Shown one piece after another: positions 18,527 through 50,028 of a stretch of 64,000 nt of DNA. This DNA comes from Candidatus Pantoea bituminis (GTDB lineage: Bacteria > Pseudomonadota > Gammaproteobacteria > Enterobacterales > Enterobacteriaceae), in the NCBI RefSeq assembly GCF_018842675.1, contig NZ_JAGTWO010000004.1, positions 1,674,001 to 1,738,000 of the forward strand, read 5' to 3'. The notes under the pieces are model-generated. The model saw nothing but the letters and a program-made list of their open reading frames with translations, made no database searches and was not told the origin of the DNA. Within the stretch, counting starts at the first letter, position 1. The number at the start of each line of letters is the position of its first letter. Made by a program: the position numbers and the translations under genes.

Positions 18527-20447
18527 ATGCGTTTGTTTATTGCGGAAAAACCCAGTCTTGGTCGGGCGATTGCCGACGTTCTGCCAAAACCCCATCGCCG
18601 TGGCGACGGCTATATTGCCTGTGGTAACGATCAAATTGTAACCTGGTGCGTTGGGCATCTATTAGAACAGGCGCAACCCGATCACTACGATAGCCGTTAC
18701 GCTCGCTGGTCACTGGCGGACTTACCTATTATTCCTGAAAAATGGCGTTTGCAACCACGTCCTTCCGTTGCGAAACAGCTCAAAGTTGTCGAAGGGTTAC
18801 TGAAGCAAGCCGATGAAGTTGTCCATGCTGGCGACCCGGATCGCGAAGGTCAGTTGTTAGTGGATGAAGTGCTTGACTACTTGCAGCTGCCTGCCGAAAA
18901 ACGCAGCAAAGTGCAGCGCTGTTTGATCAACGATCTTAATCCATCAGCGGTGGATCGTGCGGTCAATCGGTTACGCGAAAATCGCGAATTTATTCCGCTG
19001 TGTGTTTCTGCCTTAGCGCGCGCGCGCAGACTGGCTTTATGGCATCAACATGACCCGGGCCTGGACATTGTTAGGCAGAAACGCCGGATACGACGGCGTG
19101 CTTTCGGTAGGTCGTGTTCAAACGCCGGTTCTGGGTTTAGTCGTACGCCGTGATGAAGAGATAGAAAACTTTATCCCAAAAGATTACTTCGAAGTAAAAG
19201 CGCATATTGTCACGCCTGAAGAGATGCGTTTCACAGCCAATTGGGTGCCAAGCGACGCTTGTGAGCCCTGGCAAGACGAAGAGGGCCGATTGCTCAACCG
19301 CACGTTGGCTGAACACGTCGTTGCGCGTATTGCGGGAAAACCGGCGCGGGTGACGGCTTACAGTGATAAACGTGAAAGTGAAACGGCACCTTTGCCATTT
19401 TCACTTTCCAGCCTGCAAATTGAAGCGGCAAGACGTTTTGGATTAAGCGCTCAAACGGTTCTTGATACGTGTCAACGCCTGTACGAAACGCACAAACTCA
19501 TTACGTATCCACGTTCCGATAGCCGCTATTTACCCGATGAACATTTTGCCGGCCGTCATGCGGTATTAAAGGCTATTCAGGCCCATCAACCGAATCTTAC
19601 GCCGCCTGGCGACTTTAGCGCAGATCGCAAGAATCGCTGTTGGGATGATAAAAAAGTGGATGCGCATCATGCAATTATTCCGACTGCACGTTCCAGCGCC
19701 GTCAAGCTAACCGAAAATGAACAAAACGTTTACGGATTAGTCGCGCGTCAATATTTAATGCAGTTTTGTCCTGATGCGCTTTTTCGTAAATGCACTATTG
19801 AACTGGATATTGCTGGTGGCAAGTTCGTTGCCAAAGCACGTTTTCTGGCGGAAGCGGGTTGGCGTGCTTTGCTGGGTGGTAAAGAGCGAGATGAAGAGAA
19901 CGATGGCACGCCGCTGCCAGTGGTAGCTAAAGATGATGAACTGCTTTGCGAGCAGGGTGAAGTGTTAGCAAAACAGACTCAGCCGCCACGACCGTTTACT
20001 GATGCCACGCTTTTATCAGCCATGACTGGTATCGCGCGCTTCGTGCAGGATAAAGAATTAAAGAAAGTGCTGCGAGCAACCGATGGTTTAGGGACCGAGG
20101 CTACACGTGCAGGCATTATCGAGCTGTTATTTCGCCGGGCGTTTTTAGTGAAGAAGGGGCGTTCAATCAATGCGACTGAGACGGGTCGCGCGCTGATTCA
20201 TTCTCTTCCCGATTTGGCGGCAAGACCCGATATGACTGCGCAGTGGGAATCAACCCTGACACGTATCAGTGAAAAAGCCTGTCGCTATGATGAGTTCATG
20301 CATCCGCTGGTGCACACGCTAACGGGTTTGATTCAGCAGGCAAGACAGCAGCCTTCGGGACATGCCTTTCGTGGTTTACCTTCCACCGGCAAGAAAAGGC
20401 CTGCAGCCAAGGCCAAGGCTAAACGTAAAACCAAGGAGACAGGATGA
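18527..20447 (+). pseudogene. topB: DNA topoisomerase III, frameshifted
   Basis: Type IA topoisomerase that decatenates replication intermediates. The Toprim part is clear at the start ([20 protein letters not shown]; '[10 protein letters not shown]'). The frame is lost at the (GC)6 run 19016-19027: the family has [12 protein letters not shown] and the sequence gives ARARRLALW. Adding one GC unit restores the frame through to the stop at 20447, about 640 aa in total, including the active-site Tyr region '[13 protein letters not shown]'. As written, the first piece ends after 208 residues and the second begins in the wrong frame. ynjH overlaps its stop by 4 bases. Confidence 0.9.
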
Positions 20448-20758
20448 GACGTAATTCTGCTTTAGCGTGTTTGATTATGATGTTGATATGCGCCACGGCG
20501 CAGGCAAATAATCGGCATGAACAGTACAACCAAGGTCAGGCCAGTCAAGGCGGCAATACAGATGTGGTGGTGGACTTGCCGCCAGAAGCCTGGACGCAAG
20601 GGCAAAACCGTCAGCCTAATTGTTTGAAGTGCTGTATTTTTGATAATCGTAATTATACCGAAGGTGCCGTGGTGAAATCTGAAGGCGTGCTGTTACAGTG
20701 CGCGCGGGATGAGCAATCCATTGGCACAAACACTCTGATATGGAAAATAATCAAATAA
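20444..20758 (+). CDS. ynjH: DUF1496 exported protein YnjH
   Basis: 104 aa with a cleavable signal peptide (residues 1-21, ending 'ATAQA'). The mature part carries the DUF1496 core with a cysteine cluster '[17 protein letters not shown]' and '[10 protein letters not shown]', so it is likely periplasmic with possible disulfides. Function unknown. It begins with ATGA overlapping the topB stop, which indicates translational coupling. The mature N-terminal part is Gln/Asn-rich and longer than in the 90-aa E. coli protein. Confidence 0.85.
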
Positions 20759-20780
20759 AAAAGCGTGGCCTTGGCCACGC
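20756..20780 (-). terminator. xthA terminator
   Basis: GCGTGGC/GCCACGC stem with a 4-base loop, followed on the minus strand by TTTTTT. It lies just past the xthA stop and overlaps the ynjH end, so it may serve both convergent genes. Confidence 0.85.
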
Positions 20781-20785
20781 TGTGA

Positions 20786-21592
20786 TTAAAACTGAAAAGT
20801 AGACCAAATCGGCGCGTGATCGGAGGGTTTTTCCATACTGCGCAATTGATAATCGATACCCGTATCAGTACAACGTGATGATAATGGCTGACTTGCCAGA
20901 ATTAAGTCGATGCGCAAACCGCGGTTGTCATCAAATCCTTTGGAACGATAATCAAACCATGAGAAACAATCTGCCGTTTCAGGATTTTTATCGCGCCAGG
21001 TATCCACTAAACCCCACTGCAGCAATCGGTCCATCCATTCACGCTCTTCAGGCAGGAATGAACATTTTCCGGTGCGCAGCCAGCGTTTACGGCTCTCTTC
21101 ACCAATACCAATGTCTAAATCTGTGCTGCTGATGTTCATGTCACCCATGATTAATACCGGTTTATCTGCGGTGTGGTTTTCTGTCAGATAACTTTGCAGG
21201 TCACGGTAAAATTTCTCTTTAGCAGGAAATTTAGTCGGGTGGTCGCGGCTTTCGCCTTGCGGGAAGTAGCCATTTATAACGGTAATATCGCCCATTGGGC
21301 TAGGAATCTCAGCCATGATCAGACGGCGCTGTGCCTCTTCGTCATCGCCAGGAAAGCCACGGCGTACAGAGACAGGCTGAACCTTCGTTAACAACGCCAC
21401 GCCATAATGACCTTTCTGGCCGTGATAAAAGACGTTATAGCCCAGTTTTGCCACATCCTCGAGCGGAAACATATCATCATGGACTTTCGTTTCCTGTAGA
21501 CCGATGACATCGGGCTGATGTTTTTCCACCAACGCTTCCAGTTGATGTGGGCGCGCGCGCAATCCGTTGATGTTAAATGAAACAAATTTCAT
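20786..21592 (-). CDS. xthA: Exonuclease III
   Basis: 268 aa, same length as E. coli. Main AP endonuclease and 3'-repair exonuclease of base-excision repair. Active-site residues visible: Glu in 'GLQETKVHD' (near 34), Asp and Asn in 'MGDMNIS' (near 151), and 'PSDHAP' with the catalytic His (near 259). The start [10 protein letters not shown] at 21592 matches the family; a longer frame to 21604 has no support. Downstream of the tyr tRNA and rtT repeat array on the same strand. Confidence 0.97.
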
Positions 21593-21717
21593 GGTGTCGA
21601 CCATTGTTCAGCAAATGATGCGCTGGATGGTAGCGATTTTCAGGGAGAATGTCATGGTTGAGCGGGCGAGATTATCTGTTGCAGTTTTGTCTCTTGCTGA
21701 TTAACACAGCGAACTTG

Positions 21718-22303
21718 ACGCTCGGCGTAAACCTTCGGTCGAAACTTCTCATCCTTCTCATATAGAGCAGGTTGAATTTTTCATTTGAGGTGGAATCGGA
21801 GTATCTGAGAGGGTGGTGGGAGAAGGATTATGCGGCGCGCTGCGCCTTCCCTGCGGGCCGCGCTGAAGCGCGTTGTCTCGCTACGCTCGGCTCGAACCTT
21901 CGGTCGAAGCTTCTCATCCTTCTCATATAGAGCAGGTTGAATTTTTCATTTGAGGTGGAATCGGAGTATCTGAGATGGTGGTGGGAGAAGGATTATGCGG
22001 CGCGCTGCGCCTTCCTGCGTGCCGCGCTGAAGCGCGTTGTCTCGCTACGCTCGGCTCGAACCTTCGGTCGAAGCTTCTCATCCTTCTCGTGTAGAGCAGG
22101 TTAAATTTGTCACTTGAGGTGGAATCGGAGTATCTGAGATGGTGGTGGGAGAAGGATTATGCGGCGCGCTGCGCCTTCCTGCGGGCCGCGCTGAAGCGCG
22201 TTGTCTCGCTACGCTCGGCTCGAACCTTCGGTCGAAGCTTCTCATCCTTCTCGTGTAGAGCAGGTTGAATTTTTCATTTGAGGTGAAATCGGAGTATCTG
22301 AGA
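21718..22303 (-). repeat. rtT-like tandem repeats downstream of tRNA-Tyr
   Basis: Three full units of 164-165 bases plus one partial unit, read on the minus strand directly after the second tRNA-Tyr. Each unit starts with a copy of the tRNA 3' end (AATCCTTCTCCCACCACCA), with repeat starts near 21812, 21977, 22141 and the tRNA itself at 22305. Units contain short GC-rich hairpins (CGCGC/GCGCG, GGCGC/GCGCC). This is the arrangement of the E. coli tyrT rtT array, where 178-bp repeats follow tyrTV. Copies differ at only a few positions. No open frame like the E. coli tpr is evident. Confidence 0.88.
22141..22303 (-). ncRNA. rttR: Candidate rtT RNA, first repeat unit
   Basis: In E. coli an rtT RNA of about 171 nt is released when the tyrT transcript is processed and is linked to the stringent response. 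The first unit here is in the equivalent position, starting right after the tRNA CCA end. That an RNA accumulates in this organism is inference. Confidence 0.45.
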
Positions 22304-22388
<85 letters not shown>

Positions 22389-22430
22389 AGGGATATAATC
22401 TTGTGAGCTCAGGCGAAGAAACGATTCAGA

Positions 22431-22515
<85 letters not shown>

Positions 22516-22549
22516 ATGGCCTGAATCTTTGTGCCTGAAGGCGGGGCGC

Positions 22550-22577
22550 ATCATACCAAATGGGCAATGGGTGTAAA
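22550..22577 (-). promoter_or_regulatory. tyrT promoter with stringent discriminator
   Basis: TTTACA (22572-22577), a 16-base spacer and TATGAT (22550-22555), then GCGCCCCGCC. The hexamers and the GC-rich discriminator equal those of E. coli tyrT, the classic ppGpp/DksA-repressed promoter. FIS sites upstream are likely but were not resolved. Confidence 0.92.
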
Positions 22578-22621
22578 GCGCCCATGTTGAAATGATGAAT
22601 CGTTTGCCCACTTTTTACGCG

Positions 22622-22652
22622 TAGCGCTGAATTCCCAAGCAATTCAGCGCTA
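22622..22652 (-). terminator. Hairpin between purU and tyrT
   Basis: TAGCGCTGAATT pairs perfectly with AATTCAGCGCTA (12 bp, 7-base loop), starting 7 bases beyond the restored purU stop. No T-run follows, so it may be a weak terminator or 3'-end protector that insulates the tyrT promoter. Confidence 0.6.
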
Positions 22653-22658
22653 AAGCGT

Positions 22659-23506
22659 TTAAAGAATAATCGTGCGGTTGCCGTAAACGAAAACGCGTTG
22701 GCCAAGAACTTTATATAATGCATTGCTTAATACATTTTTTCTACGTCGCGACCGGCTCGCATCATCTCATCCGCGGTATAGCTGTGATCCACATTAATCA
22801 CGTCCTGCATGATGATTGGGCCTTCATCAAGATTATCATTCACATAGTGCGCAGTTGCACCGATGATTTTAACGCCGCGTTCATAGGCTTGATGATAAGG
22901 GCGCGCCCCGATAAAGGCAGGCAAAAACGAATGGTGAATATTGATAATTTGATTGGGATAACGCTGAACAAAAGCGGGCGTTAATACGCGCATGTATTTC
23001 GCTAATACCACGTAATCGGGCTGATACCGATCAATCTCTTCTACCATGCGGTTATCATGCTCTTCACGCGTCAATCCTTCATGGCTTACCAGCGCAAAAG
23101 GAATATCGAAGCGTTCAACTAAAGAACGTAAAGTATCGTGATTACCAATAACAGCCGCAATTTCCATATCCAGACCGCCAAAAGCACTTTTCATCAGCAG
23201 ATCGCCAAGACAATGCGCTTCTTTAGTCACCAAAATTACAACGCGACGACGTCCAGCGCTGTGTAATTCGCGGACTGAACCTTGGGGCAGGGCACTATCT
23301 AAATCGGCTAGCAGTGTGTTGTCGTTAAAAATCCCTTCCAGCTCAGTGCGCATAAAGAAGCGCCCGGTGCGATGATCAACAAACTCATTGTTTTGCACGA
23401 TATTGAGTTCGTGCTTGTAACAAATATTAGTGATTTTGGCGATCAGACCTTTTGCATCGGGACAAATGGTACGTAGAACTTTTCTTTGCATGGTTTGCGC
23501 TTGCAT
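22659..23506 (-). pseudogene. purU: Formyltetrahydrofolate deformylase, C-terminal frameshift
   Basis: Makes formate and tetrahydrofolate from 10-formyl-THF, feeding PurT and balancing one-carbon pools. An ACT domain (residues 1-90) is followed by the formyltransferase-like domain with 'INIHHSFLPAFIGA', including the catalytic His. After 'GRDVEK' the frame reads MY-stop. Adding one A to the run of six (T on the plus strand, 22735-22740) restores the family ending NVLSNALYKVLGQRVFVYG and a stop at 22659, 282 aa. As written, about 23 C-terminal residues are lost; the catalytic part remains. Confidence 0.9.
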
Positions 23507-23562
23507 CTCAATAAGAGTCCTGTCAAAGCATTAAGGGTAAAACTGTTGTGCTGGTGGCTCAC

Positions 23563-24017
23563 TCAGCCGCAACACTTCTTGTATTTTTTATCGGAGCCAC
23601 ACGGGCAGCGATCGTTGCGCCCTAACTCTGGCGCTGTTCCATCAACATAGTACCAGCGTTGATCCTCGCGAAGAAAGCGTGAACATTCATAGAGAGCGTG
23701 AATGCTGTTTTTTTCGCGGTATCGCGCAAAAAGGTAACGAAAGCTTCATTATCATGGCTTCCGATAATACAACGAGTTACATTCAGACTTAACCATTCGG
23801 TGCCGGGAAAACTTTCAGATAAAAGCCCTGCAAGAGTGGATTCACGTTTGGCTGGATGCCAGGTCGAGACAAGGTAAGCAGCATCTTGCTTAGCATAAGC
23901 GCTGTAACGTGAACGCATGAGTTGTTCAGCAGTTGCCGGGGTTTGATTGCCTTTCAGAAAGGGCTCACAACATAGGCTATACTGCTTTCCGCTGCAGCAG
24001 GGGCACTTTTCAGACAC
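23563..24017 (-). pseudogene. ychJ: SEC-C motif protein YchJ, frameshifted
   Basis: Small protein of unknown role with two cysteine clusters, 'CPCCSGKQYSLCC' at the N-terminus and a SEC-C zinc motif '[13 protein letters not shown]' at the C-terminus. The frame is lost at a run of five A (23728-23732 on the plus strand). One more base gives [13 protein letters not shown] and full length (151 aa) ending at 23563. As written, 131 residues are made and the C-terminal zinc motif is lost. GTG start at 24017 with AGGAG 6 bases before. Divergent from rssA. Confidence 0.85.
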
Positions 24018-24113
24018 GTAAGCTCCTGAGAGTGTGAAGAAGAAAAATAATAAGCGCTATGGTAGCCGACCCCAAGCTGCGAAGCTATGTATTGAAGCAG
24101 GACCAGAGAACAG

Positions 24114-25018
24114 ATGAGAAAAGTAAAAGTTGGATTGGCACTGGGTTCAGGCGCAGCCAAAGGATGGGCACATATAGGTGTAATCAAGGCTCTTGAACGC
24201 GCAGGCATTGAAATTGACGTTGTTGCTGGATGCTCTGTCGGGGCTTTAGTCGGTTCGGCTTACGTGAATAACCGATTAGCCGTGATGGAAAAGTGGGTCA
24301 GCGCCTTTAGCTATTGGGATGTCATTCGTCTGATGGATGTCTCCTGGCAACGCGGCGGATTACTGCGCGGTGAGCGGGTATTTAACCACATCCGACAGTT
24401 GATCCCACATGATTCTATTGAAGCCTGTAACAAGCCTTTTGGTGTCGTGGCGACCAATCTCAGCACAGGGCGGGAATTGTGGCTTACGGAAGGTGATCTT
24501 CATCAGGCTGTGCGTGCTTCCTGTAGTATGCCAGGCTTATTACCACCTGTCGGCTACAATGGTTATTGGTTAGTCGACGGCGCGGTAGTCAATCCTGTTC
24601 CTGTCTCGCTGACGCGAGCGATGGGTGCTGATATCGTTATTGCTGTTGATCTTCAACATGATGCACACTTAATGCAGCAAGACTTGTTATCGGTTACACC
24701 GCAAAACAGTGAGGAAGAAGCTGCTGCGGCTGCGTTAGACTGGAGAAGTAAGTTGCGTCAGCGTCTGGTGAATTTTACCCAGCGTCGCGCATCACAAACG
24801 CCTGGAGCGATGGAAATTATGACAACATCAATTCAGGTTTTGGAAAATCGCCTTAAACGCAACCGCATGGCAGGTGATCCTCCCGATGTTCTTATTCAGC
24901 CGTTTTGTCCGCAAATTTCCACACTGGACTTTCATCGTGCCGAAGAAGCTATTGAGGCAGGTAAGGCCGCTGTTGAGAAAAAATGGATGAACTTTTACCG
25001 CTGGTCCGCAGTAGATAA
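24114..25018 (+). pseudogene. rssA: Patatin-like protein RssA, C-terminal frameshift
   Basis: Patatin-family protein encoded with the RpoS regulator RssB. The oxyanion loop 'LGSGAAKGWAHIG', nucleophile elbow 'GCSVG' and dyad 'VDGAVVNP' are intact. The frame shifts at the A6 run 24978-24983: KKWMNFYRW is read where KKMDELLPLVRSR-stop is expected. Restoring one A gives 301 aa, exactly the E. coli length, ending at 25018. As written, the frame instead runs on to 25133, adding about 50 foreign residues and overlapping rssB. The catalytic part is unaffected. Confidence 0.88.
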
Positions 25019-25117
25019 TCAGGTTGTTCATTCACAGATGTCACTTCGGTCAATTCTGAAAGGCGCAACTGCGTTTTATGAACCACTATTGAATTATCTG
25101 GTACGCAGGGGGAGAGA

Positions 25118-26134
25118 ATGGAAAAACCACTAATCGGCAAAAAGATACTCATTGTCGAAGATGAGGCCGTTTTCCGTTCGTTGCTGGACCAATTTTTGTT
25201 ATCGATGGGTGCTGTGACGTTACAAGCGGAAGACGGTGTAGACGCGATAGCGCAGCTACAACAGCACACTGTTGACCTTATAATTTGTGATCTTGAGATG
25301 CCGCGTATGAACGGCATTCAGTTTGTTGAGCATATTCGGACACGGGGTAATAGTGTACCGGTGTTGGTTATTTCAGCCACAGAAAACATGGCTGACATTG
25401 CCCATGTCTTGAGATTAGGTGTACAGGATGTGCTGCTCAAACCGCTGAAAAACTTTGAACGCTTTCGTGAAGCGGTATACGAATGCCTTTACCCTTCGAT
25501 GTTTACCTCTAAAGTCGAAGAGGATGAACAGCTTTTTCAGGACTGGGACGCCTTAGTTCGTGATCCCAAAGCCGCCGCAAAATTGCTTAAGCAACTTCAG
25601 CCGCCGGTACAGCAAAATATCGCCAATTGCCGCGTCAATTATCGTCAGTTAACCATGGCTGAGCAGCCGGGGTTGGTGCTGGATATTGCCGCGCTATCTG
25701 ACAAAGACCTGGCTTTCTATTGTCTGGATGTTACCCGAGCAGGCGACAATGGCGTTCTGGCTGCGCTGCTCTTACGGGCGCTGTTCAATGGCTTGCTGCA
25801 AGAACAGTTATCGGGACAAAAACAGCTGCTTCCTGAACTCAACGGTTTGCTCCGGCAGGTAAATTTACTCTTGCGGCAAGCAAACCTGAGCGGTCAGTTT
25901 CCGCTCTTAGTGGGTTATTATCACCGCGGTTTGAAAAATTTGATATTGGTTTCAGCAGGTTTAAATGCCACTTTGCATGTTCATGCCCATCAAATTCAAC
26001 TCAGTAATGGGGTTCCCCTTGGCACTATGGGAAGTACCCACCTCAACCAGATCAGTCAGCGTGCAGACACCTGGCAATGCCACGTGTGGGGCGCTGGTGG
26101 CCGCATTCGTCTGATGTTATCTGCTGAAGAATAG
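25118..26134 (+). CDS. rssB: Response regulator RssB, RpoS adaptor
   Basis: 338 aa. Binds sigma-S and delivers it to ClpXP for degradation. N-terminal receiver domain with the acidic pair 'EDE' at 15-17, phospho-acceptor Asp58 in 'IICDLEMPRMNG' and the signalling Lys in 'DVLLKP'. The C-terminal part is an inactive PP2C-like domain. Complete and in frame. With H-NS (29.7 kb) and rssA it forms the general-stress control neighbourhood conserved with E. coli. Start MEKPLIGKKI at 25118 has a GGGGGAGAGA ribosome site. Confidence 0.95.
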   Translation: MEKPLIGKKILIVEDEAVFRSLLDQFLLSMGAVTLQAEDGVDAIAQLQQHTVDLIICDLEMPRMNGIQFVEHIRTRGNSVPVLVISATENMADIAHVLRLGVQDVLLKPLKNFERFREAVYECLYPSMFTSKVEEDEQLFQDWDALVRDPKAAAKLLKQLQPPVQQNIANCRVNYRQLTMAEQPGLVLDIAALSDKDLAFYCLDVTRAGDNGVLAALLLRALFNGLLQEQLSGQKQLLPELNGLLRQVNLLLRQANLSGQFPLLVGYYHRGLKNLILVSAGLNATLHVHAHQIQLSNGVPLGTMGSTHLNQISQRADTWQCHVWGAGGRIRLMLSAEE

Positions 26135-26149
26135 ACAGAAAAACAAAAT

Positions 26150-26179
26150 TCTCCTGGCGCTGGAGACAGGTCCAGGAGA
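26150..26179. terminator. Inverted repeat after rssB
   Basis: TCTCCTGG (26150-26157) and CCAGGAGA (26172-26179) form an 8-bp stem with a 14-base loop, 16 bases past the rssB stop. No clear T-run follows, so it is a possible weak terminator ahead of the galU promoter. Confidence 0.4.
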
Positions 26180-31229: not shown

Positions 31230-33916
31230 TTACGCTTTTTTGGTTTTCTTCTCAACTTTCACGTCTTTCACCGGTTGAGCCGCAACGGCCTCTGCGATGC
31301 TTGAGAACGGTTCTACATATTCACGACCGTAGAAGGTATCCAGCATGATCTGTTTCAATTCAGCAATCAGCGGATAACGTGGGTTGGCGCCTGTACATTG
31401 GTCATCAAATGCGTCCTCTGCCAGTTTATCGACCTTCGCAAGGAAATCTGCCTCCTGAACGCCAGCTTCGCGTATAGATGTCGGGATACCCAGTTGCGTT
31501 TTCATCTCATCAAGCCATGCCAGCAGTCTTTCAATTTTCTGCGCAGTACGGTCACCTTCACGACTCAGACCTAAATGGTCAGCGATTTCCGCGTAGCGAC
31601 GACGGGCTTGCGGACGATCGTACTGACTAAATGCCGTTTGCTTGGTTGGGTTGTCATTCGCGTTATAACGAATGACGTTAGCAATCAGCAGAGAGTTAGC
31701 CAGACCGTGCGGAATATGGAATTCAGAACCGAGTTTGTGTGCCATTGAGTGACAAACGCCCAGAAAAGCATTAGCAAATGCGATACCCGCGATGGTTGCC
31801 GCATTATGTACGCGCTCGCGTGCAACCGGGTTCTTAGCGCCTTCCGCGTAGCTGGTGGGTAAATTCTCTTTCAATAATTTCAAGGCTTGTAATGCCTGGC
31901 CGTCAGAGTATTCATTCGCCAGCACCGAAACATACGCTTCAAGAGAGTGAGTGACTGCATCCAGGCCACCAAAAGCGCAAAGTGAACGCGGCATATCCAT
32001 CACCAAATTGGCATCAACAATGGCCATGTCAGGTGTTAAAGCATAATCAGCTAATGGATATTTTTGACCTGTTGCATCGTCAGTGACCACAGCGAATGGC
32101 GTAACTTCTGAGCCTGTACCCGATGTGGTGGTAATAGCAACCATGCGCGCTTTTACACCCATTTTTGGGAATTTATAGATGCGTTTACGGATATCCATAA
32201 AGCGCAGCGCTAACTCTTCAAAATGGGTTTCAGGATGTTCGTACATCACCCACATAATTTTGGCCGCATCCATCGGTGAACCGCCGCCTAGCGCGATAAT
32301 CACGTCAGGTTTAAAGCTGTTCATCTGTTCTGCGCCTTTACGTACGATGCTGAGTGTAGGATCGGCTTCAACTTCAAAAAACACTTCAGTTTCGATGCCG
32401 TGAGATTTAAGCACTCGCGTAACCTGGTCGGCATAACCGTTATTGAACAGGAAGCGGTCGGTCACGATGAATGCACGTTTCGCGCCATCAGTTGCTACTT
32501 CCTCCAGGGCGATAGGCAGCGAACCACGACGGAAGTAAATAGACTTCGGAAGTTTATGCCACAACATATTTTCAGCTCGCTTGGCGACAGTTTTCTTATT
32601 GATAAGATGTTTGGGTCCAACGTTTTCTGAGATGGAGTTGCCACCCCATGAACCACAACCTAATGTCAAAGACGGCGCAAGTTTGAAGTTGTACAAGTCG
32701 CCGATACCACCTTGCGAAGCGGGCGTGTTAATCAAGATACGCGCGGTTTTCATTTTATCGCCGAAATAGTGTACGCGCTCAGTTTGGTTATCTTGATCGG
32801 TATAAAGGCAAGAGGTATGACCGATACCGCCCATCTCTACCAGTTTTTCGGCTTTACTCACCGCATCCTGAAAATCTTTTGCACGATACATCGCTAATGT
32901 TGGTGAGAGTTTTTCATGGGCAAAAGGCTCTGACTCATCAACCAGTTTCACTTCGCCAATGAGAATTTTGGTATTCTGCGGCACTGAAATGCCTGCCATT
33001 TCAGCAATTTTCACTGCGGGCTGGCCGACAATGGCGGCATTCAACCCACCATTTTTCAGGATGATACCTTGAACAGCGCTTAACTCTGCGCCCTGCAGCA
33101 TATAGCCGCCATGGCTTGAGAAGCGTTCGCGTACGGCCTCGTAGACAGAATCCACCACAATGACGGATTGCTCAGAGGCACAAATCACGCCGTTATCGAA
33201 GGTTTTAGACATGAGGATAGAAGCGACAGCGCGTTTGATGTCTGCGGTTTCATCAATAACGACAGGGGTATTACCTGCACCCACACCAATGGCTGGCTTA
33301 CCAGAACTGTAAGCGGCTTTCACCATGCCCGGGCCCCCGGTCGCAAGGATCAGGTTGATATCTGGGTGATGCATTAACTGATTCGACAGTTCCACAGACG
33401 GTGTATCAATCCATCCAATGATATCTTTAGGAGCGCCGGCGGCAATAGCGGCCTGCAGGACAATATCTGCAGCTTTATTGGTGGCATCTTTTGCACGTGG
33501 ATGAGGCGAGAAAATAATACCGTTGCGGGTTTTAAGACTGATTAGTGCTTTGAAAATCGCGGTTGAGGTTGGGTTTGTGGTCGGAACGATACCGCAAATC
33601 AACCCAATCGGTTCCGCAATGGTAATCGTACCGAAAGTATCATCGGTATTTAACACACCACAGGTCTTTTCATCTTTATAGGCGTTGTAAATATATTCAG
33701 AGGCGAAGTGATTTTTGATGACCTTGTCTTCAACAATTCCCATGCCGGACTCGGCTACAGCCAATTTTGCCAGAGGAATACGGGCGTCGGCGGCGGCGAG
33801 GGCGGCAGCGCGGAAAATAGCGTCAACCTGTTGTTGAGAAAAGTTGGCGTATTCACGCTGGGCTTTTTTACACGTTCAACCAGTGCATTAAGTTCAGCGA
33901 CATTAGTAACGGCCAT
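31230..33916 (-). pseudogene. adhE: Aldehyde-alcohol dehydrogenase AdhE, frameshifted near the start
   Basis: Bifunctional fermentative enzyme: acetyl-CoA to acetaldehyde to ethanol, forming filaments (spirosomes). The true start is ATG 33916 with AGGAG. After 'AELNALVERVKK' the frame is lost at the run of six T (33864-33869 on the plus strand). One added base restores AQREYANFSQQQV and a full 895-aa frame. The remaining 844 codons are intact, with the CoA-aldehyde domain Cys in 'GVICASEQ' and the iron alcohol dehydrogenase domain ('GGGSPMDAAK', 'FGGLDAVTHSLEAY'). An internal ATG (33764) could not give a working N-terminus. An FNR-like box lies upstream. Confidence 0.92.
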
Positions 33917-34375
33917 GATGCTCTCCTGAAAGAAGTTAAACTTTTTAGTAAACAAGCCTGACCACTGAGTATAGTTCCGCTGCGTTAATACGGCGGTAAC
34001 AGTTAAATTGCCAGGCTTTTCAGCTGTTTAATAAAAAATTCATCGCATTCTGGGTGGAGCGCCCTGAATACTTTTGATGCGGAAAGATTACCTGGTTTGA
34101 GGTAGGAGAATGATGATCTGGATCAATTTACATGCAAGCTGACACCATTCAGCTAACCGAAGCGTTTGAATCAATGCATCGGTTATAAAGTCATCACCTG
34201 AATAGCGGGCATATTTTGACGTATAGCGGCATGAACCATGACAATTTTAATAGCTGGATGATCAAACCATATAAAACGCAAAATGACAGAATAAATACCT
34301 GAGAGACGCGCTGGCTTAGGCTTGGCTTTTGCCTTACATTAGGCGCGATTTTTTCATTCTGGAATGGAGTTCATC
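33917..34375. other. Divergent adhE/ychE control region
   Basis: A 459-base gap carrying both promoters. An FNR-type dyad at 34113-34126 is the only regulator site that stands out. No open frame or repeat was seen. Confidence 0.55.
34113..34126. promoter_or_regulatory. FNR-type box upstream of adhE
   Basis: ATGAT-CTGG-ATCAA matches TTGAT-N4-ATCAA with one mismatch. It lies 197 bases upstream of the adhE start. Anaerobic control fits AdhE's fermentative role; the assignment is inference. Confidence 0.5.
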
Positions 34376-37382: not shown

Positions 37383-39022
37383 ATGAACAACATCACGAAG
37401 AAAAGCCTTATCGCAGCAGGTGTGTTCGCGGCGATGAGCGCGCTGGCAGGGAACGCTGTTCAGGCGGCATCAGTGCCATCTGGCGTTGAATTAGCGGCAA
37501 AGCAAGAACTGATTAAGGGTAATGGCGATGAAGTTCAGTCGCTGGATCCGCACAAAATTGAAGGCGTACCTGAATCAAACGTTAACCGCGATTTGTTAGA
37601 AGGTCTGTTGATCAGTGATGTTCAGGGCAAACCTGTTCCGGGCGTGGCTGAAAGCTGGGAAAATAAAGAGGCTAAAGTCTGGACTTTCCATCTCCGTAAA
37701 GACGCCAAATGGTCTAACGGTGAGCCTGTTACCGCACAAGATTTCGTCTTTAGCTGGCAGCGCCTGGCCGATCCAAAAACGGCTTCCCCTTACGCCAGCT
37801 ATTTGCAGTACGGCCATCTGCTGAATGTTGATGACATCATTGCAGGCAAAAAAAGCCGTCTGAGCTGGGCGTAAAAGCCATTGATGACCACACGCTGGAA
37901 GTCACGTTGAGCGAAGGTGTGCCTTATTTCTATAAGCTGCTCATTCATCCCTCTATGTCACCTGTATACAAGCCAGCAATTGAAAAGTTTGGTGATCAGT
38001 GGACTCAGCCGCAAAACTGGATCGGCAACGGTGCATTTAAGCTGGAATCACACATTATCAACGAACGTATTACGCTGGTTCGTAACCCGCAGTATTGGGA
38101 CAACGCCCATACTGTGCTGAATAAAGTGACATTCCTGCCAATCTCTTCAGAAGTCAGCGATGTTAACCGCTACTTCTCAGATAACGGCAGTGATATGACT
38201 TATAACAACATGCCTATCGAGCTGTTCAAAAAGCTACAGCGTGACAATGGCAAAGAGCTGCATGTTGATCCTTATCTCTGTACTTACTATTACGAAATCA
38301 ATAACCAGAAAGCGCCGTTTACCGATCCACGCGTTCGTGCTGCGCTGAAGCTGGGTATCGATCGTGACATCATCGTAAATAAAGTCCTGGCGCAAGGCCA
38401 GATGCCGGCTTACAGCTTCACGCCTCCGGCAACCGACGGCATGGATATTCTGCCGCCAGACTGGTTCAAATGGCCGCAAGAAAAACGTAATGAAGAAGCG
38501 AAAAAATTGTTAGCCGAAGCGGGTTACACGGCGGATAAGCCGTTGACCTTCAACCTGCTGTACAACACCTCCGATTTGCATAAGAAATTGGCAATCGCAG
38601 CATCTTCTATCTGGAAGAAAAACATTGGCGTTAACATCAAGCTGGAAAATCAGGAATGGAAAACCTTCCTGGATACGCGTCATCAGGGGAATTTTGACGT
38701 TTCACGCGCGGCATGGTGTGCTGACTACAATGAACCGACTTCATTCCTGAACATTATGTTGTCAGACAGCAGCAACAACACCTCGCATTACAAGAGTGCT
38801 GACTTTGATAAAGCGGTACATGAAGCCTTAAGCGCAGCAGATGACAAAGCGCGCGCGGCTGATTATCAGCAAGCTGAACAGGTTCTTGATAAAGATTCAG
38901 TGATTGTACCGCTGTTCTATTACGTGAACGCGCGTCTGGTGAAACCTTATGTCGGTGGTTATACCGGTAAAGATCCACTGGACAACGTCTACGACAAAAA
39001 CTTGTATATCATTAAACATTAA
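37383..39022 (+). pseudogene. oppA: Oligopeptide-binding protein OppA, second copy, frameshifted
   Basis: This copy is closer to E. coli OppA (MNNITKKSLIAAGVFAAMSA signal, 'DDIIAGKK', 'EGVPYFYKLLIHPS'). The frame is lost at the seven-A run 37848-37854: KKSRLSWA-stop replaces a segment that should read K-PSELGVKAIDDHTLEV. One added base restores 546 aa to the stop at 39022. As written, 163 residues, then a separate frame from 37907. Strong GGAG ribosome site. It is followed by an attenuating terminator and oppB, the normal position of the main binding protein of the system. Confidence 0.92.
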
Positions 39023-42980: not shown

Positions 42981-42983
42981 AAC

Positions 42984-43011
42984 AAAACGCCGGGCAGTTG
43001 CCCGGCGTTTC
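42984..43011. terminator. Bidirectional terminator between oppF and yciU
   Basis: CGCCGGGC, AGTT loop, GCCCGGCG with flanking A and T runs, between convergent oppF and yciU. Confidence 0.88.
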
Positions 43012-43025
43012 TTCATCATTGGCGC

Positions 43026-43349: not shown

Positions 43350-43393
43350 GATCTATCCCGTTGCCCAAGGGCGTTTACACAATTTTGCTCGTT

Positions 43394-44854
43394 TTACAGT
43401 AAAGGACTAAAGAAGTAAAACAGTCGTTCAACGATACGTTGCCACCAGGCACGTTTCGCCCAGCGCTTGCCATCCAGCAGTCTTGAGCGGGCGATGTAAT
43501 CATCCTGAACACAAGCAAGGTCGCTGCCAAAGCCTGCATCATCGACCACTAAGGTGATCTCAAAGTTGAGCCATAAGCTGCGCATATCCAGGTTAACCGT
43601 ACCGACCAGGCTGAGTTGCCCATCAACCAGCACGCTTTTGGTATGCAGCAAGCCATCCTCAAACTGATAAATCTTAACACCCGCTTCCAGTAACTCACTG
43701 AAAAAGGCGCGGCTGGCCCAGCCTACCAGCAGTGAATCATTGTGGCGTGGTACCACAATGCTAACATTCACGCCACGTAAAGCTGCGGTGCAGATCGCAT
43801 GTAACAGATCGTCGCTGGGCACGAAGTAGGGCGTGGTCATGATCAATTGCTCACGCGCGGAGTAAACTGCGGTTAACAAAGCCTGATGAATCATGTCCTC
43901 GGGAAAACCTGGACCCGAGGCGATAACTTGTACCGTGTGACCACTCTCTTTTTCGAAAGGCATGATGTTGCGATCGGGCGGCGGCGGAAGAATGCGTTTG
44001 CCGGTCTCAATTTCCCAGTCACAGCTAAAGACAATGCCCATTGCGGTAGCCACGGGGCCTTCCATGCGCGCCATCAAATCGACCCATTGTCCTACGCCTG
44101 CGTCCTGTTTGAAAAAGCGTGGGTCCACCAGATTCATGCTACCGGTGTAAGCAATATAGTTGTCGATTAATACTACTTTGCGGTGCTGGCGGAGATCCAT
44201 ACGGCGCAGAAACACACGCAACAAGCTGACCTGCAACGCTTCGACCACATCAATGCCCGCATTGCGCATCATACCTACCCAAGGGCTGCGGAAGAACGTT
44301 ACGCTGCCCGCTGAATCCAGCATCAGACGGCAATGTACGCCACGCCGTGAGGCAGCCATCAAGGACTCAGCAACTTCATCCGCCAGGCCACCGGGATGCC
44401 AGATATAGAACACCATTTCAATGTTATGACGAGCGAGCTGAATATCACGAATCAGCGCCTGCATGACTTCATCGGAGCTGGTTAACAGCTGTAGCTGGTT
44501 GCCTTTTACGCCTGCAATGCCCTGACGGTTTTGACACAGCTGAAAAAGTGAGCGTGCTACGTCGCTGTGTTCGGTGGCAAATATTTCACGGCATTGTTTA
44601 AGATCGTTCAGCCACCTTGCGGTTGAAGGCCACATGGTGCGCGCACGCTCGGCGCGCCGTTTACCTAAATGTAGCTCGCCGAACGACAGATAAGCGATAA
44701 TGCCAACCAACGGCAGAATATAGATAATTAACAGCCAGGCCATGGCTGAAGTCACGGCACGACGCTTCATCAGTACTCGCAGCGTGACTCCGGCAATCAG
44801 TAGCCAGTAGCCAAACAGCAATAACCAACTGATAAGCGTGTAAAAAGTGGTCAT
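43394..44854 (-). CDS. clsA: Cardiolipin synthase A
   Basis: 486 aa; condenses two phosphatidylglycerols to cardiolipin in the inner membrane. Two N-terminal helices (about 5-60) and two phospholipase-D HKD motifs: '[18 protein letters not shown]' near residue 224 and '[18 protein letters not shown]' near 404. Intact and full length. Divergent from yciY, whose promoter region it shares. Confidence 0.96.
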
Positions 44855-44954
44855 TAAGTGGACGTCCTGTTCGCGCTTTGGTCTGAGAAGTTTACGTGCA
44901 GATGTCGGTCAGTGAAACCCTTTATCGTTGACCCTTCACGATAAGAGATACGAT

Positions 44955-44982
44955 TTGGCATTGGCGTACAGATCTCTATAAT
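44955..44982 (+). promoter_or_regulatory. yciY promoter
   Basis: TTGGCA (44955-44960), a 16-base spacer and TATAAT (44977-44982), 34 bases upstream of the yciY start. Perfect -10. Confidence 0.7.
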
Positions 44983-45016
44983 GCGTCCGCGTGATATCGA
45001 AGTCAGAGAGGAAGTC

Positions 45017-45190
45017 ATGAGACGAAGCAAAAATGAAGTAGCTCGCTGGAGAATGTTACGTCAGGCTCACCGCCGCCGCTCGCGTTGGCTGGAAGGGCAG
45101 TCACGACGCTATAAGCGCATTCACGGCATTCGGCATCAACTTGCTCAGCAGCAACGTCGTTCCATTCTGTTCATTACGCAAATTTTATAA
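45017..45190 (+). CDS. yciY: Small basic protein YciY
   Basis: 57 aa, strongly Arg-rich (MRRSKNEVARWRMLRQAHRR). It matches the E. coli small protein YciY in length and in the core 'SRWLEGQSRR'. Start at ATG 45017 with AGAGAGGA upstream; the longer open frame to 44981 covers the promoter and is rejected. Promoter and terminator are both visible, so it is a self-contained gene. Function unknown; the charge suggests nucleic-acid or membrane-phosphate binding (inference). Confidence 0.85.
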   Translation: MRRSKNEVARWRMLRQAHRRRSRWLEGQSRRYKRIHGIRHQLAQQQRRSILFITQIL

Positions 45191-45193
45191 AAT

Positions 45194-45220
45194 AAAAAAG
45201 CCGCACGATGCGGCTTTTTT
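45194..45220. terminator. Bidirectional terminator after yciY
   Basis: AAAAAGCCGCA, CGA loop, TGCGGCTTTTTT, between yciY and the convergent small membrane gene. Confidence 0.9.
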
Positions 45221-45221
45221 A

Positions 45222-45395
45222 TTAATGTCCGGTCATCACTAATTTTAGGTTGACCAGCTGTAGCGCGGCGGCAAGAACAATCAGCATGACAATCAAATGC
45301 TTTCTACGCTTCCAGCCATGTTTGCGCCACAGCATAATCGCTGAGCCAATCAGTACAGCAATAACCAACAGCAGCGCCAAAATAACCATTTGCAT
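45222..45395 (-). CDS. Small two-helix membrane protein, unknown
   Basis: 57 aa (MQMVILALLLVIAVLIGSAI...) with two hydrophobic segments, about residues 1-22 and 34-52, joined by the basic stretch 'WRKHGWKRRKH'. The loop is likely cytoplasmic by the positive-inside rule. It lies where E. coli has the potassium-channel gene kch, between yciI and clsA. It is not a fragment of a channel (no TVGYG filter). A TTG 18 bases upstream could also start it. Sequence family not recognised; ribosome site weak, so it may depend on yciI transcription. Confidence 0.6.
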   Translation of the reverse strand: MQMVILALLLVIAVLIGSAIMLWRKHGWKRRKHLIVMLIVLAAALQLVNLKLVMTGH

Positions 45396-45411
45396 AATGC
45401 AGAGCCCAATC

Positions 45412-45451
45412 AAAAAAATGGCTTCTGCGCTGATGCTCAGAAGCCATTTTT
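45412..45451 (-). terminator. yciI terminator
   Basis: TGGCTTCTG/CAGAAGCCA, 9-bp stem with flanking A7 and T5, 14 bases beyond the yciI stop. Confidence 0.88.
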
Positions 45452-45465
45452 ATATAATGCGGAAA

Positions 45466-45762
45466 TTAAAAAACGCGTTTGAACGGCTTTACCGCAACGT
45501 TCTTATATACGCCTGCGGCAATGTAAGGATCATCTTCAGCCCAGGATTGAGCGGTTTCCAGTGATGGAAACTCAGCGATAACCGTTGAACCCGTAAAACC
45601 CGCTACACCCGGATCGTTGCTGTCAACAGCGGGCATGGGTCCAGCAATGATCAGGCGACCTTCTTCATGCAGCAGTTTCAGGCGTGCGAGATGTGCAGGG
45701 CGCACGGCGTTACGTTTTTCCAGTGAGTCGGCATTGTCTTCTGCATAAATGACGTAAAGCAC
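45466..45762 (-). CDS. yciI: YciI-family protein
   Basis: 98 aa, same length as E. coli. Ferredoxin-like alpha/beta barrel related to dehydrochlorinases; activity unknown. '[17 protein letters not shown]', '[17 protein letters not shown]' and the conserved '[12 protein letters not shown]' are clear; the His and Asp in these blocks are the proposed active site. Divergent from tonB, as in E. coli. Confidence 0.94.
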
Positions 45763-45906
45763 TTGGTAGCTCCGATTAATTCTTCTGAATTTCGCAACAC
45801 GTTAAGTGATCGTTAATCAGAGTGCAAACGAAAGAAGAGATGCGCAACTTTAGTGAGCATCCAGGGTTTAAAAAACGCTTTTCTTTCAACCTGGCTACAG
45901 CAGTTA

Positions 45907-45936
45907 TTGAAACTGATTGCTATTTGCATTTAAAAT
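45907..45936 (+). promoter_or_regulatory. tonB promoter region
   Basis: TTGAAA (45907-45912), 18-base spacer, TAAAAT (45931-45936). The stretch TGATTGCTATTTGCATTTAA closely resembles the E. coli tonB promoter, which is Fur-controlled; a loose Fur-box match overlaps it. Confidence 0.6.
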
Positions 45937-45965
45937 CGCTGCTTCACTCAATGACTGCGATTGTT

Positions 45966-46727
45966 ATGACCACGCTGACTATGCCATTACCAAAACGCAC
46001 GCCGATTTCCATGTTACTTTCCGTTGCATTACACGGCGCGGTGATTGCAGGCGTCCTTTATGCCTCGTATAACCAGGTTATTGAAGTTCCTAAGGCGTCG
46101 CAGCCGATCAGCGTAACGATGGTGGCTCCCGAAGTGCAGCCTGAACCGGCACCTGCTGTTGTACAACCGCCACAACCGGAACCGCAACCTGAGCCAGAGC
46201 CTGAACCGGTTCCTGAGCCACAGCCTGCGCCGGAACCGCCTAAGCCTGTGCCCGTTCCCATTCCTAAGCCCGAACCGAAGCCGAAGCCGAAGCCGAAACC
46301 TAAGCCAGAGCACAAACGCGAGCAGCCGAAGCGCGAAGTGAAACCGCGTCAGGAAAGCAAACCGCAGGCGAATCCCTTTAAGCAAGAGACGCCGACAACA
46401 CAAACTAAGCCGACTACTGCGCCTAAAACGAATCCTGCGCCGACACAATCGGTCTCAAATGGACCCAAAGCGCTGAATGTCAGCAAACCTGCTTATCCCG
46501 CACGTGCTTTTGCGTTGCGTATAGAAGGGCGCGTTCGTGTGCAGTTTGATGTGGATAGCGATGGCCGCGTTGATAACATCCGCGTGCTCTCAGCGGAGCC
46601 GCGTAATATGTTTGAGCGAGAAGTGAAGCAGGCGATGAAGAAGTGGCGTTATCAGAGTGGTCGTCCGGGACAAAATTTGACCATGAATATCGTGTTCAAA
46701 ATGAACGGTGGCGCAAGTATCGAATAA
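45966..46727 (+). CDS. tonB: Energy-transducing protein TonB
   Basis: 253 aa. Couples the proton gradient through ExbB-ExbD to outer-membrane siderophore and B12 receptors. The N-terminal helix (about 13-33) has the conserved Ser/His face ('[10 protein letters not shown]'); the periplasmic spacer has Glu-Pro repeats and then Lys-Pro repeats (about 65-120). The C-terminal TonB domain has '[20 protein letters not shown]' and 'WRYQSGRPG'. Start ATG 45966 chosen by alignment with E. coli; the open frame extends upstream through the promoter. Convergent with yciA. Confidence 0.93.
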
Positions 46728-46762
46728 CCGTTCTTTATTGAGGATGGGGTAATGTGGGGGAT

Positions 46763-46800
46763 GTCCGACAGTTAACGCGTTTTTCTTTTAACCATCGGAC
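46763..46800. terminator. Hairpin between tonB and yciA
   Basis: GTCCGA and TCGGAC with an inner GTTAA/TTAAC pair and matching CA bulges, T-rich loop, between convergent tonB and yciA. No clean T-run follows. Confidence 0.45.
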
Positions 46801-46879
46801 TCTCCTTCCCAGACTCGGACGTTGAGAGTTTTCAACCTTATCCGTTAGATTTCGCCAGCACAGTTTATTTCAACGTCAC

Positions 46880-47302
46880 TCAGGCATGGGGTTGCTGATT
46901 GGCTCGGCCTTGCGGCAGCGGACGAGAGTTTCCTTCATTATCCACCGCAACATAAATAAACACCGCTTCCGTCGCGCAATATGTCTGGCCAATCGGTTCT
47001 GACGAGACTTTCTTGATCCATACCTGAACGTTAATCGTCATGGAGCTGTTGCCAGTGCGAATGCAATTGGCATGGCAGCTCACGACATCTCCCACAGCGA
47101 CCGGCTTGAGGAACGTCATACCGTCCACACGCACTGTCACTACGCGTCCTTCTGCAATTTCCTTAGCCAAAATTGCGCCGCCCATGTCCATCTGCGACAT
47201 GAGCCAGCCACCAAATATATCGCCATTGGCATTGGTATCCGCCGGCATGGCTAAGGTACGCAACACCATTTCGCCTTGCGGCAACTTATGCTTATCGTCC
47301 AT
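46880..47302 (-). CDS. yciA: Acyl-CoA thioesterase YciA
   Basis: 140 aa hotdog-fold thioesterase of broad acyl-CoA range. 'LRTLAMPADTNANGDIFGGWLMSQMD' holds the active-site Asn/Asp helix region; 'GRVVTVRVDGMTFLKPVAVGD' is typical. C-terminus 'GRANQQPHA' is a few residues longer than in E. coli (132 aa). First residues MDDKHKLPQGE replace the E. coli leader. Followed by the sense-strand order yciC-yciB-yciA on the minus strand, probably one operon. Confidence 0.95.
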   Translation of the reverse strand: MDDKHKLPQGEMVLRTLAMPADTNANGDIFGGWLMSQMDMGGAILAKEIAEGRVVTVRVDGMTFLKPVAVGDVVSCHANCIRTGNSSMTINVQVWIKKVSSEPIGQTYCATEAVFIYVAVDNEGNSRPLPQGRANQQPHA

Positions 47303-47371
47303 TGCTTCAGTTTCTTATGCAGGTGATGGCGGCAGGCGCCAAAAATTGCCCGGCGCGTACCGGGCGAATCA

Positions 47372-47908
47372 TTATTTTTGTTCTTGCGGCATCTGTCGCC
47401 AGATGTAGAGTCCGCTGAATAAGGTAAACAGCAGGGTAAGGCCGGTCAAACCAAACACTTTAAAGTTAACCCAAACTTCCTGAGGCAACCAAAAGGCCAC
47501 ATAAATATTTGCCAGGCCGCACATCAGGAAGAATATCGCCCAGGCAACATTCAAGCGACGCCAGATGGGGCCAGGAAGCTGCAGTTCTTTACCTAACATG
47601 CTCTGGATCAGCGGTTGTTTCATGAAAAATTGGCTAAACAGCAATGCCAGCGCGAACAGGCTGTAAATCACCGTTACTTTCCATTTAATGAACTCATCGT
47701 TATGGAAAACCAGGGTCAATGTGCCAAACACTGCAACCAGCACAAAGGTAAAGATAGTCATTTTCTCTAGCTTGCGATACAGCACCCAGCTAACAACCAA
47801 GGCTAAGCCTGTCGCAACGATCAGCGCGCCGGAGGCGACAAAGATGTCGTACATCTTGTAGAAAACGAAAAAAACCACCAAGGGAAGAAAATCGAGTAAC
47901 TGCTTCAT
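47372..47908 (-). CDS. yciB: Inner-membrane septation protein YciB (IspA)
   Basis: 178 aa, five membrane helices, needed for normal cell division and envelope integrity in enterics and Shigella spread. Core '[19 protein letters not shown]' and '[15 protein letters not shown]' is conserved. Start [10 protein letters not shown] at ATG 47908, with an ATG two codons earlier as an alternative. The large open frame upstream overlaps yciC antigen-free sequence and is not used. Confidence 0.94.
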
Positions 47909-47964
47909 AGTCATTCCAGTAAAGGCAGAGGCGTTAGTTGATGCGCCCGCAGGCGCACCCACAA

Positions 47965-48698
47965 TTAACGTAACAGCATATAGAGCCGGTACAGGTAGAT
48001 AATCAAGACAACGGAAACCAGATTGCCCACTGCGGTCAGCATTACTGAAGTTACATTTACCGGCAGCACGGTCAAAGAGGAGAAGAAGAACATAACCGCG
48101 ATTTTTGCCAGCAGCCAAAGAATAATAGCCGGAGCAATGAGCTTCATATTCTGCCACGCCATACGCATGCTGGCGCGCATAGACGCGAATACACCCATAT
48201 TTTCACTGGCTAACATCACAGGTGCCAGCGAAAACAGAATCGCAAAAATCACGCCCGGGATTAAAACCACCATGAAGCCGAGTTGAACCAGCAAGGTGAT
48301 GAGGAAGGTTTGCAGTAACAGCTTCGGCAGCAGCGGTGCAGAGGCACCAATTGCACGTAAGGCGCTAACGCGTTGACCGGAAGAGACCATTGGGATCAGG
48401 CACAGCATGCCACCTAACAGCAAGGCGTTGCCCACCAGCGCGGCAAAGGTGCCCGCGGCGGAAGCGCGAAGTAATACACGCTGCTGTTCGGGTGACATAT
48501 TCTGAACCATGTCAAACAGAGAAGTGGCGCTGGAATCGCCTTGTTGCAAAATCGCCAATTGATCTTCACCGGGCGTCATTACGTGCGCCAGCATGACCGT
48601 GATAAAAGCGGTCAACAGCGACATCAGCACGACAGTTAATAACTGGTGGCGAAAAAATTTCCAGTGTCACGGTATAACGAGCTTGCCGTGATAGACAT
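47965..48698 (-). pseudogene. yciC: UPF0259 membrane protein YciC, frameshifted
   Basis: Multi-helix inner-membrane protein of unknown role. The true start is ATG 48698 (MSITASSLYRDTGNFF) with AAGGAG 6 bases upstream. The frame breaks at the run of six A on the plus strand (48652-48657): GNFFATSY-stop is read instead of GNFFRHQLLTVVLMSLL. One added base restores 244 aa to the stop at 47965. As written, only a 221-residue form from an internal ATG lacking the first helix region could be made. yciB and yciA follow on the same strand. Confidence 0.88.
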
Positions 48699-48725
48699 GT
48701 ACACTCCTTGGAGAAACCGGGTTGA

Positions 48726-49142
48726 TTAACCCGGCGATTGTACATGTTCTGGCAGCTCGCTGGCACCCGCCGCGGCATAACTTTCTGTCATCACAGGTAA
48801 AGATGGGTGAAAAAGTGCTGGAAGACCGTGACGCGCTCTGGCGCGATCGCAGGCTTCGTTCCACTCACCATTTTCACCGGACATGGCAAACTCTCGACAA
48901 GGTGTTGGCCGCTGTTCATAAATACCGCAAGAAACGCACCCGCCGATTTCACCCTCTAACGCGATACAGCGTGGTGTACGCGTATTGGTGCCGATCATGT
49001 TGCGCATCAACAGGCTGAGAGGTTCAGTTAATTCAGTGGGCACAACGCCGCCCGCGTCTTGAGCTTCAGCCCAGTAAAAAGAGACACGGAAGTGGGCGCA
49101 GCAGGCGCCACAGCTGATACATGGATTTGTTATTTCGCTCAT
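48726..49142 (-). CDS. YkgJ-family cysteine cluster protein
   Basis: 138 aa with the CxxCxxC cluster family pattern: '[20 protein letters not shown]' at the N-terminus and later '[18 protein letters not shown]'. Such proteins bind zinc or an iron-sulfur cluster; activity unknown. Similar to E. coli YkgJ. Start MSEITNPC at ATG 49142 is preferred over an upstream in-frame GTG. It is inserted between yciC and ompW, which adjoin in E. coli, 27 bases before yciC on the same strand. Confidence 0.88.
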
Positions 49143-49256
49143 TTGATCGCCAGCTACTCCTGAGCATCGAACCAAAATCACCAGAGAAGATAAGCAAAAT
49201 AAGCGGGGGCAAATTTTTCAGCAAGCTCTATTTTCAACATCATGGCTCCGTCTAAA

Positions 49257-49270
49257 TTGATCTAAATCAA
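49257..49270. promoter_or_regulatory. FNR box upstream of ompW
   Basis: TTGAT-CTAA-ATCAA, a perfect FNR consensus dyad, 127 bases before ompW. Established: E. coli ompW is activated by FNR and ArcA under low oxygen. The position would fit a class II promoter with start near 49305. Confidence 0.75.
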
Positions 49271-49396
49271 TCCTTTGTTTTTTAAGCAAATTAGTCGAAA
49301 TGATTTGGATGCATTTTTCAAAAAATCGCGTTAAACCTTTGCCGACAAATAAATGACAACATCTCCCCACGATTAAAATTCTGCAAAGGAGCGACC

Positions 49397-50028
49397 ATGA
49401 AACTGGCAAAATGCGCGATGCTACTGACTCTGGTATTACCTCAACTGGCACTGGCTCATCAGGCTGGCGATTTTTTTATGCGTGCAGGCAGCGCAACCGT
49501 ACGACCAACCGAAGGATCGGATAATGTGCTGGGCATGGGATCATTCTCCGCCAGCAATGATACGCAGCTTGGCCTGACTTTTACCTATATGGCAACGGAT
49601 AACATTGGCGTGGAACTACTTGCAGCGACGCCGTTCCGCCACAAAGTGGGTCTGGGACCAACCGGCACGTTGGCCACGGTGCGCCAGTTGCCGCCAACGC
49701 TGATGGCGCAATACTATTTTTTGACAGCAAAAGCAAAGCGCGCCCCTATATCGGCGTAGGTATTAACTACACCACTTTTTATGATGCCGATTTTAATAAC
49801 ACTGGACGCGATGCCGGATTAACTGATTTGAGCGTTAAAGATTCGTGGGGTATGGCAGGACAAGTTGGATTGGATTACCAGATTAACCGCGACTGGATGC
49901 TGAATGCTTCGGTGTGGTACATGGATATTGATACAGAAGTGAAGTTTAAAGCAGGCGGTGAGCAGCAGAACATTAATATGCGTATCGATCCTTGGGTATT
50001 TTTCTTCGGTGCGGGTTACCGTTTCTGA
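49397..50028 (+). pseudogene. ompW: Outer-membrane protein OmpW, frameshifted
   Basis: Eight-stranded outer-membrane barrel with a hydrophobic channel. Signal peptide 1-20 (ending 'LALAHQ') and early strands are intact. At the run of six T (49717-49722) the frame shifts: QYYFLTAKAK replaces QYYFFDSKSKARPYIGVG. One added T restores 210 aa ending in the typical barrel terminus 'FFFGAGYRF'. As written, 120 residues. Strong AAAGGAG ribosome site and FNR box upstream. Confidence 0.92.

Follow-up and report, generated by a model that had tools for sequence, protein, structure and literature searches.

Does a group of frame-broken genes in a bacterial assembly record real gene decay, or a fault in the written sequence? 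The question is raised by a stretch of 64,000 nucleotides from the genome of Candidatus Pantoea bituminis (G000:C4:1674001-1738000; the whole stretch is referred to below as the window), in which the conserved genes topB, purU, ychJ, rssA, adhE, oppA2, yciC and ompW each lose their reading frame at a short low-complexity run. We conclude with high confidence that these eight broken genes are assembly consensus errors and not a biological feature. They are read as errors because the same breaks hit near-indispensable genes elsewhere in the genome and become commoner with increasing run length. All tests were comparative.

The study genome comprises 5.22 Mb in five contigs and has a completeness of 95.96, with 32 of 35 same-genus genomes scoring higher. 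Named relatives, of which the top ones by OppD were Candidatus Pantoea deserta (96% amino acid identity) and P. allii (95%), place it in or beside Pantoea. In the oppA2 and opp transporter region, the nearest of the 35 same-genus genomes shared ~84% DNA identity over 5 kb, and searches of the Escherichia coli and plasmid collections returned no record covering 80% of the query. The guanine plus cytosine (GC) content of the window (1-64000) was 0.491, cf. 0.520-0.536 in the matching region of four congeners.

Eight window genes are each broken once

To check the eight genes, proteins of the congeners G030 and G032 were searched against the window, and the lesion sites were aligned at the DNA level with four congeners (G015, G017, G030 and G032). 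All eight genes are single open reading frames (ORFs) in both G030 and G032, and one frame change was seen inside each of them in the window (8/8). As the original prediction had described from the window's sequence, every gene was frame-broken once, at an A/T homopolymer written 5 to 7 bases long in seven cases (each a net loss of one base, or net -1) and at a CG/GC dinucleotide run in topB (net -2). The genes and their lesions are as follows.

18527..20447, plus strand: topB (DNA topoisomerase III), split over two frames by a net -2 change within a CG-rich dinucleotide run
22662..23506, minus strand: purU, frame lost at a T run close to the 3' end
23566..24017, minus strand: ychJ, internal frame change at an A/T run
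24114..25133, plus strand: rssA (patatin-like), frame lost close to the 3' end, with the written ORF overrunning the normal stop
31230..33946, minus strand: adhE, frame lost at a T run close to the 5' end; the range takes in the leader extension of the congener ORFs
37383..39022, plus strand: oppA2 (second oligopeptide-binding protein), split over two frames at an A run
47965..48700, minus strand: yciC, frame lost at an A run close to the 5' end; the 5' limit is approximate
49373..50025, plus strand: ompW, split over two frames at a T run

The genes had also been said to carry neither stop substitutions nor second lesions, and both statements held. The scan for stops used 56 G032 ORFs of at least 90 amino acids that matched the window at >60% identity, and stops within aligned segments occurred in 3/56 of these, namely where the two frames overlap at the lesions of topB and ychJ, and in a spurious ORF lying over transfer RNA (tRNA) genes and RtT repeats. 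Because stops were confined to these two overlap zones and one spurious ORF, there was no stop substitution in the eight genes among the 56 matched ORFs. A further small difference was seen at a second T run in the leader of adhE, outside the canonical gene; G030, G032 and G015 have one base more there, and G017 differs. At window positions 21811-22515 on the minus strand, two tRNA genes are followed by three RtT repeats (Rfam matches), an array that we take to resemble the enterobacterial tyrosine-tRNA arrangement.

The frame changes in the window exceed chance. Compared over this region, the window showed 10 frame-changing sites relative to G032, 10 relative to G015 and 9 relative to G030, cf. 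2, 3 and 1 sites when G015, G030 and G017, respectively, were compared with G032; none of the sites in these three congener-congener comparisons fell at a run longer than 3. The site filter dropped sites ≤45 nucleotides from ORF ends and admitted leader and tRNA-region sites, such that 3 of the 10 sites relative to G032 were not gene lesions (two in leader extensions and one in the tRNA region). The rssA lesion is absent from the filtered sites because it lies near the ORF end.

Essential genes are broken as often as window genes

The window alone does not decide between artefact and biology; other parts of the genome do. Biological lesions would be expected to leave essential genes intact, whereas base-calling errors would not. 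Five clusters rich in essential genes (dcw; rpsB to accA; S10/spc/alpha; rpoBC; and gyrB to mnmE) were taken from the study genome and scored with E. coli K-12 proteins. Of 94 proteins given, 90 were scored; the study DNA had no match for leuO, yacG, coaA and yidB, which were therefore left out. Fifteen of the 90 genes were split, at 16 junctions that all had the same frame sense: ilvI, ftsI, rpsB, ispU, fabZ, dnaE (twice), mscL, yhdN, rpsE, rpsH, rplV, rplD, rplC, rpoB and dnaN. In E. coli, 12 of these 15 genes count as essential, the exceptions being ilvI, mscL and yhdN. When the same proteins were used on G032 as a control, 0/86 genes were split. Genes with <93% of their length covered were not counted as split; these were ftsL, mutT, trkA and rplX in the study genome and ftsL, accA, trkA and yhdN in the control.

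Whole-genome orthologue searches, which were made for rpoB, dnaE, rplC, dnaN and ftsI among the split genes, found only the broken locus for the first four, and for ftsI the broken locus together with paralogues at ≤53% identity. A TAG and a TAA in an ftsI paralogue (G000:C4:3345106-3346809) were considered as a real lesion and rejected, as a stop-free alignment with G032 took in 556/556 residues at 94%. A second GyrB-like gene, which is probably parE, matched in three pieces, with three frame changes there. Not all genes are affected, since secY, gyrB and the chromosomal bamA were intact. On contig C2, a second BamA-like gene (G000:C2:204001-214000, ~4069-6492) matches E. coli BamA in four pieces and three frames.

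The broken share was 15/90 in the clusters vs 8/56 in the window (Fisher p = 0.82), a rough comparison because each set had its own reference proteins. Breakage in the clusters is no lower than in the window, and relaxed selection fails on the essential genes. Real and recent pseudogenisation in a host-restricted lineage, as in stink-bug gut Pantoea, in which run contractions accumulate under relaxed selection, would fit the AT-richer DNA of the window relative to the four congeners, and host-restricted Pantoea with pseudogene/gene ratios of 35-45% are described (PMC10720322). However, it is already contradicted by the broken essential genes, which are hit as often as the window and include the single-locus rpoB, dnaE, rplC and dnaN. 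The lack of stop substitutions in the eight genes, the unreduced genome of 5.2 Mb and the intact near-identical copies of topB, oppA2 and rssA described below also speak against it. The original prediction had offered recent relaxation of selection as one biological alternative, and this does not survive the finding that rpoB, dnaE, dnaN, ftsI and rplC are split without an intact orthologue in the assembly; we regard pseudogenisation as very improbable.

Breaks become commoner with run length

Two sets of alignments were used to relate breaks to run length. Set 1 covered the window and six other loci of the study genome, each aligned with G032 (145,104 coding positions; 37 sites), and set 2 comprised ten further 20-kb chromosome samples, of which nine were aligned (93,463 positions; 18 sites); the 700k sample had no aligned coding DNA and was left out of set 2. 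Rates were calculated from net -1 sites, with the earlier run length inferred as the written length plus one. Pooled over both sets, the lesion rate of A/T runs was 2/496 at length 5, 10/124 at length 6, 11/30 at length 7 and 2/2 at length 8. G/C runs were also broken (7/400 of inferred length 4-6), at rates of 1/358, 3/39 and 3/3 for lengths 4, 5 and 6, respectively.

Losses outnumbered gains throughout, with net -1 and net +1 sites standing at 29:1 among the 37 sites of set 1, 12:4 among the 18 sites of set 2, and 44:8 among the 69 sites of an unfiltered list that includes ORF edges. A written run of at least 5 was touched by 19/37 sites in set 1 and 8/18 in set 2 (27/55 overall), and by 26 of the 41 net -1 sites in both sets.

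The broken G/C runs bear on a second biological alternative, in which the frameshifts are real, genome-wide and tolerated, with RNA polymerase or the ribosome slipping on A/T tracts and thereby returning some of the product to frame. Frameshifts can be partly rescued over repeats of 3-8 bases, including those of G and C (PMC3812077), and because of this partial rescue we keep the probability of slippage above zero. Transcription insertions in A/T runs increase with run length, but the same study found run insertions at no other kind of run and no frame restored by an error in transcription (PMC5574713). Under slippage, RpoB, DnaE, DnaN, FtsI and several ribosomal proteins would need simultaneous rescue, whereas the breaks are not confined to A/T tracts, as G/C runs and a CG dinucleotide run were broken too, and no reason is given for the absence of long runs (see below). 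Rescue by slippage, which the original prediction had also raised, was set aside because of how many and which genes are broken, the broken G/C runs and the missing long runs, and we find it hardly credible. That the written sequence is right, and that roughly every seventh gene, rpoB, dnaE and ribosomal-protein genes among them, is frame-shifted and decoded via genome-wide slippage, seems to us next to impossible.

Long A/T runs are scarce in the sampled study DNA

A/T runs of at least 8 were found twice in 444 kb of study DNA, cf. 29 times in 611 kb of G032 (Fisher p = 1.4e-5). This corresponds to 4.5 vs 47 such runs per Mb, making them ~tenfold rarer in the sampled study DNA, although this DNA is AT-richer than that of G032. 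The ratios of observed runs to a first-order expectation for lengths 6 and 7 were 1.3 and 1.0 in the study DNA and 2.2 and 2.6 in G032. E. coli K-12 contained 3 A/T runs of at least 8 in 104 kb. Because E. coli K-12 is also depleted, depletion relative to a first-order model is no proof by itself, and the comparison with congeners is the better one.

Full-length near-identical copies exist for three of the genes

The written C-terminal piece of topB retrieved 11 full-length proteins of 640 amino acids at 99-100% identity, and both written pieces matched 640-amino-acid relatives at 99.4-100%. Similarly, a 546-amino-acid protein (cluster of 8) matched the written oppA2 pieces at 99.4% and 100%, and a 301-amino-acid protein (cluster of 18) matched rssA at 99.3% as far as the frame change. 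Full-length near-identical versions were therefore found for 3/3 genes tested, in other records, which may come from other isolates or platforms. The comparison with close relatives that the original prediction had called for was borne out in so far as all eight genes are intact ORFs in G030 and G032, and topB, oppA2 and rssA have near-identical full-length copies.

Run under-calling as the probable source of the breaks

In the explanation that we favour, the sequencing and consensus method writes long single-base runs one unit short, and some CG dinucleotide runs are likewise shortened by one unit. The probability of error climbs steeply from runs of ~6 upward, whatever the function of the gene. 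As the cause we infer long-read base-calling of the nanopore type with too little polishing. Such under-calling accounts for the direction of the changes, for their dependence on run length and not on gene function, for the scarcity of long runs and for the existence of intact near-identical copies. Homopolymer under-calling, as put forward in the original prediction, is backed by the essential-gene breaks, the run-length curve, the excess of losses, the presence of sites in most of the sampled chromosome regions, the long-run deficit, the full-length copies and a completeness below that of 32 of the 35 congeners.

Several points weigh against under-calling. The artefact verdict was reached by comparative tests, and the copy check covers three of the eight genes (topB, oppA2 and rssA). 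The rate for A/T runs of 6 was uneven (10/81 in set 1 and 0/43 in set 2), 4 of the 18 sites in set 2 were net +1, and sites occurred in 6/9 aligned samples of set 2 and in none of the other three (3/9). No written run of at least 5 was touched by 18/37 sites in set 1 and 10/18 in set 2, or by 15 of the 41 net -1 sites in both sets. Run under-calling alone leaves these sites away from runs unexplained; some are probably alignment noise, and others may be errors of another kind. Furthermore, the finished genome of E. coli K-12 had 10 A/T runs of 7 vs 15 predicted (0.7x), and 2 runs of 8 vs 4 predicted by the first-order model.

Two net -1 sites off long runs, at ~1783 and ~7979 of sample L117, have CCWGG at the same place in the congener. 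Dcm methylation was considered as a second source of error and rejected, as the observed/expected ratio of CCWGG was 0.80, cf. 0.79-0.81 in congeners, with no depletion beyond theirs.

Comparison with known systems

Insect endosymbionts such as Blochmannia and Buchnera have slippage-rescued frameshifts at poly-A tracts. The study genome resembles these in that conserved genes lose frame at A/T tracts, but differs in that breaks also occur in G/C runs and in a CG dinucleotide run, and A/T runs of at least 8 are nearly absent from the sampled DNA.

A similar profile was reported for the MinION assembly of Pss508, in which homopolymer deletions fragmented genes and correction lowered pseudogenes from 23.3% to 5.6% (PMC12007338). 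Its nanopore errors share with those described here the losses at homopolymers, at A/T more than G/C, the false pseudogenes due to frameshifts only and the lowered completeness score (PMC12007338). Unlike here, where comparative tests only were used, the Pss508 study checked its errors against raw reads and short-read assemblies, and most deletions, by count, followed runs of 4-5 (PMC12007338), whereas here the rate climbs from ~6 upward. The stink-bug symbiont P. bathycoeliae (3.16 Mb, 54.85% GC, Illumina reads) is pseudogene-rich and comparable in belonging to the same genus or close to it and in having many disrupted genes (PMC10720322). However, its genome is reduced to 3.16 Mb (PMC10720322), whereas the 5.2-Mb genome studied here has run-length-dependent breaks that also fall in essential genes.

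Implications

The run-length curve and the essential-gene test help to separate errors from real decay without reads, and both are usable on other assemblies. For the genome studied here, annotation of the assembly will carry many false pseudogenes. Pseudogene counts, claims of host restriction, calls of missing pathways and completeness values derived from the assembly would all err in a predictable direction.

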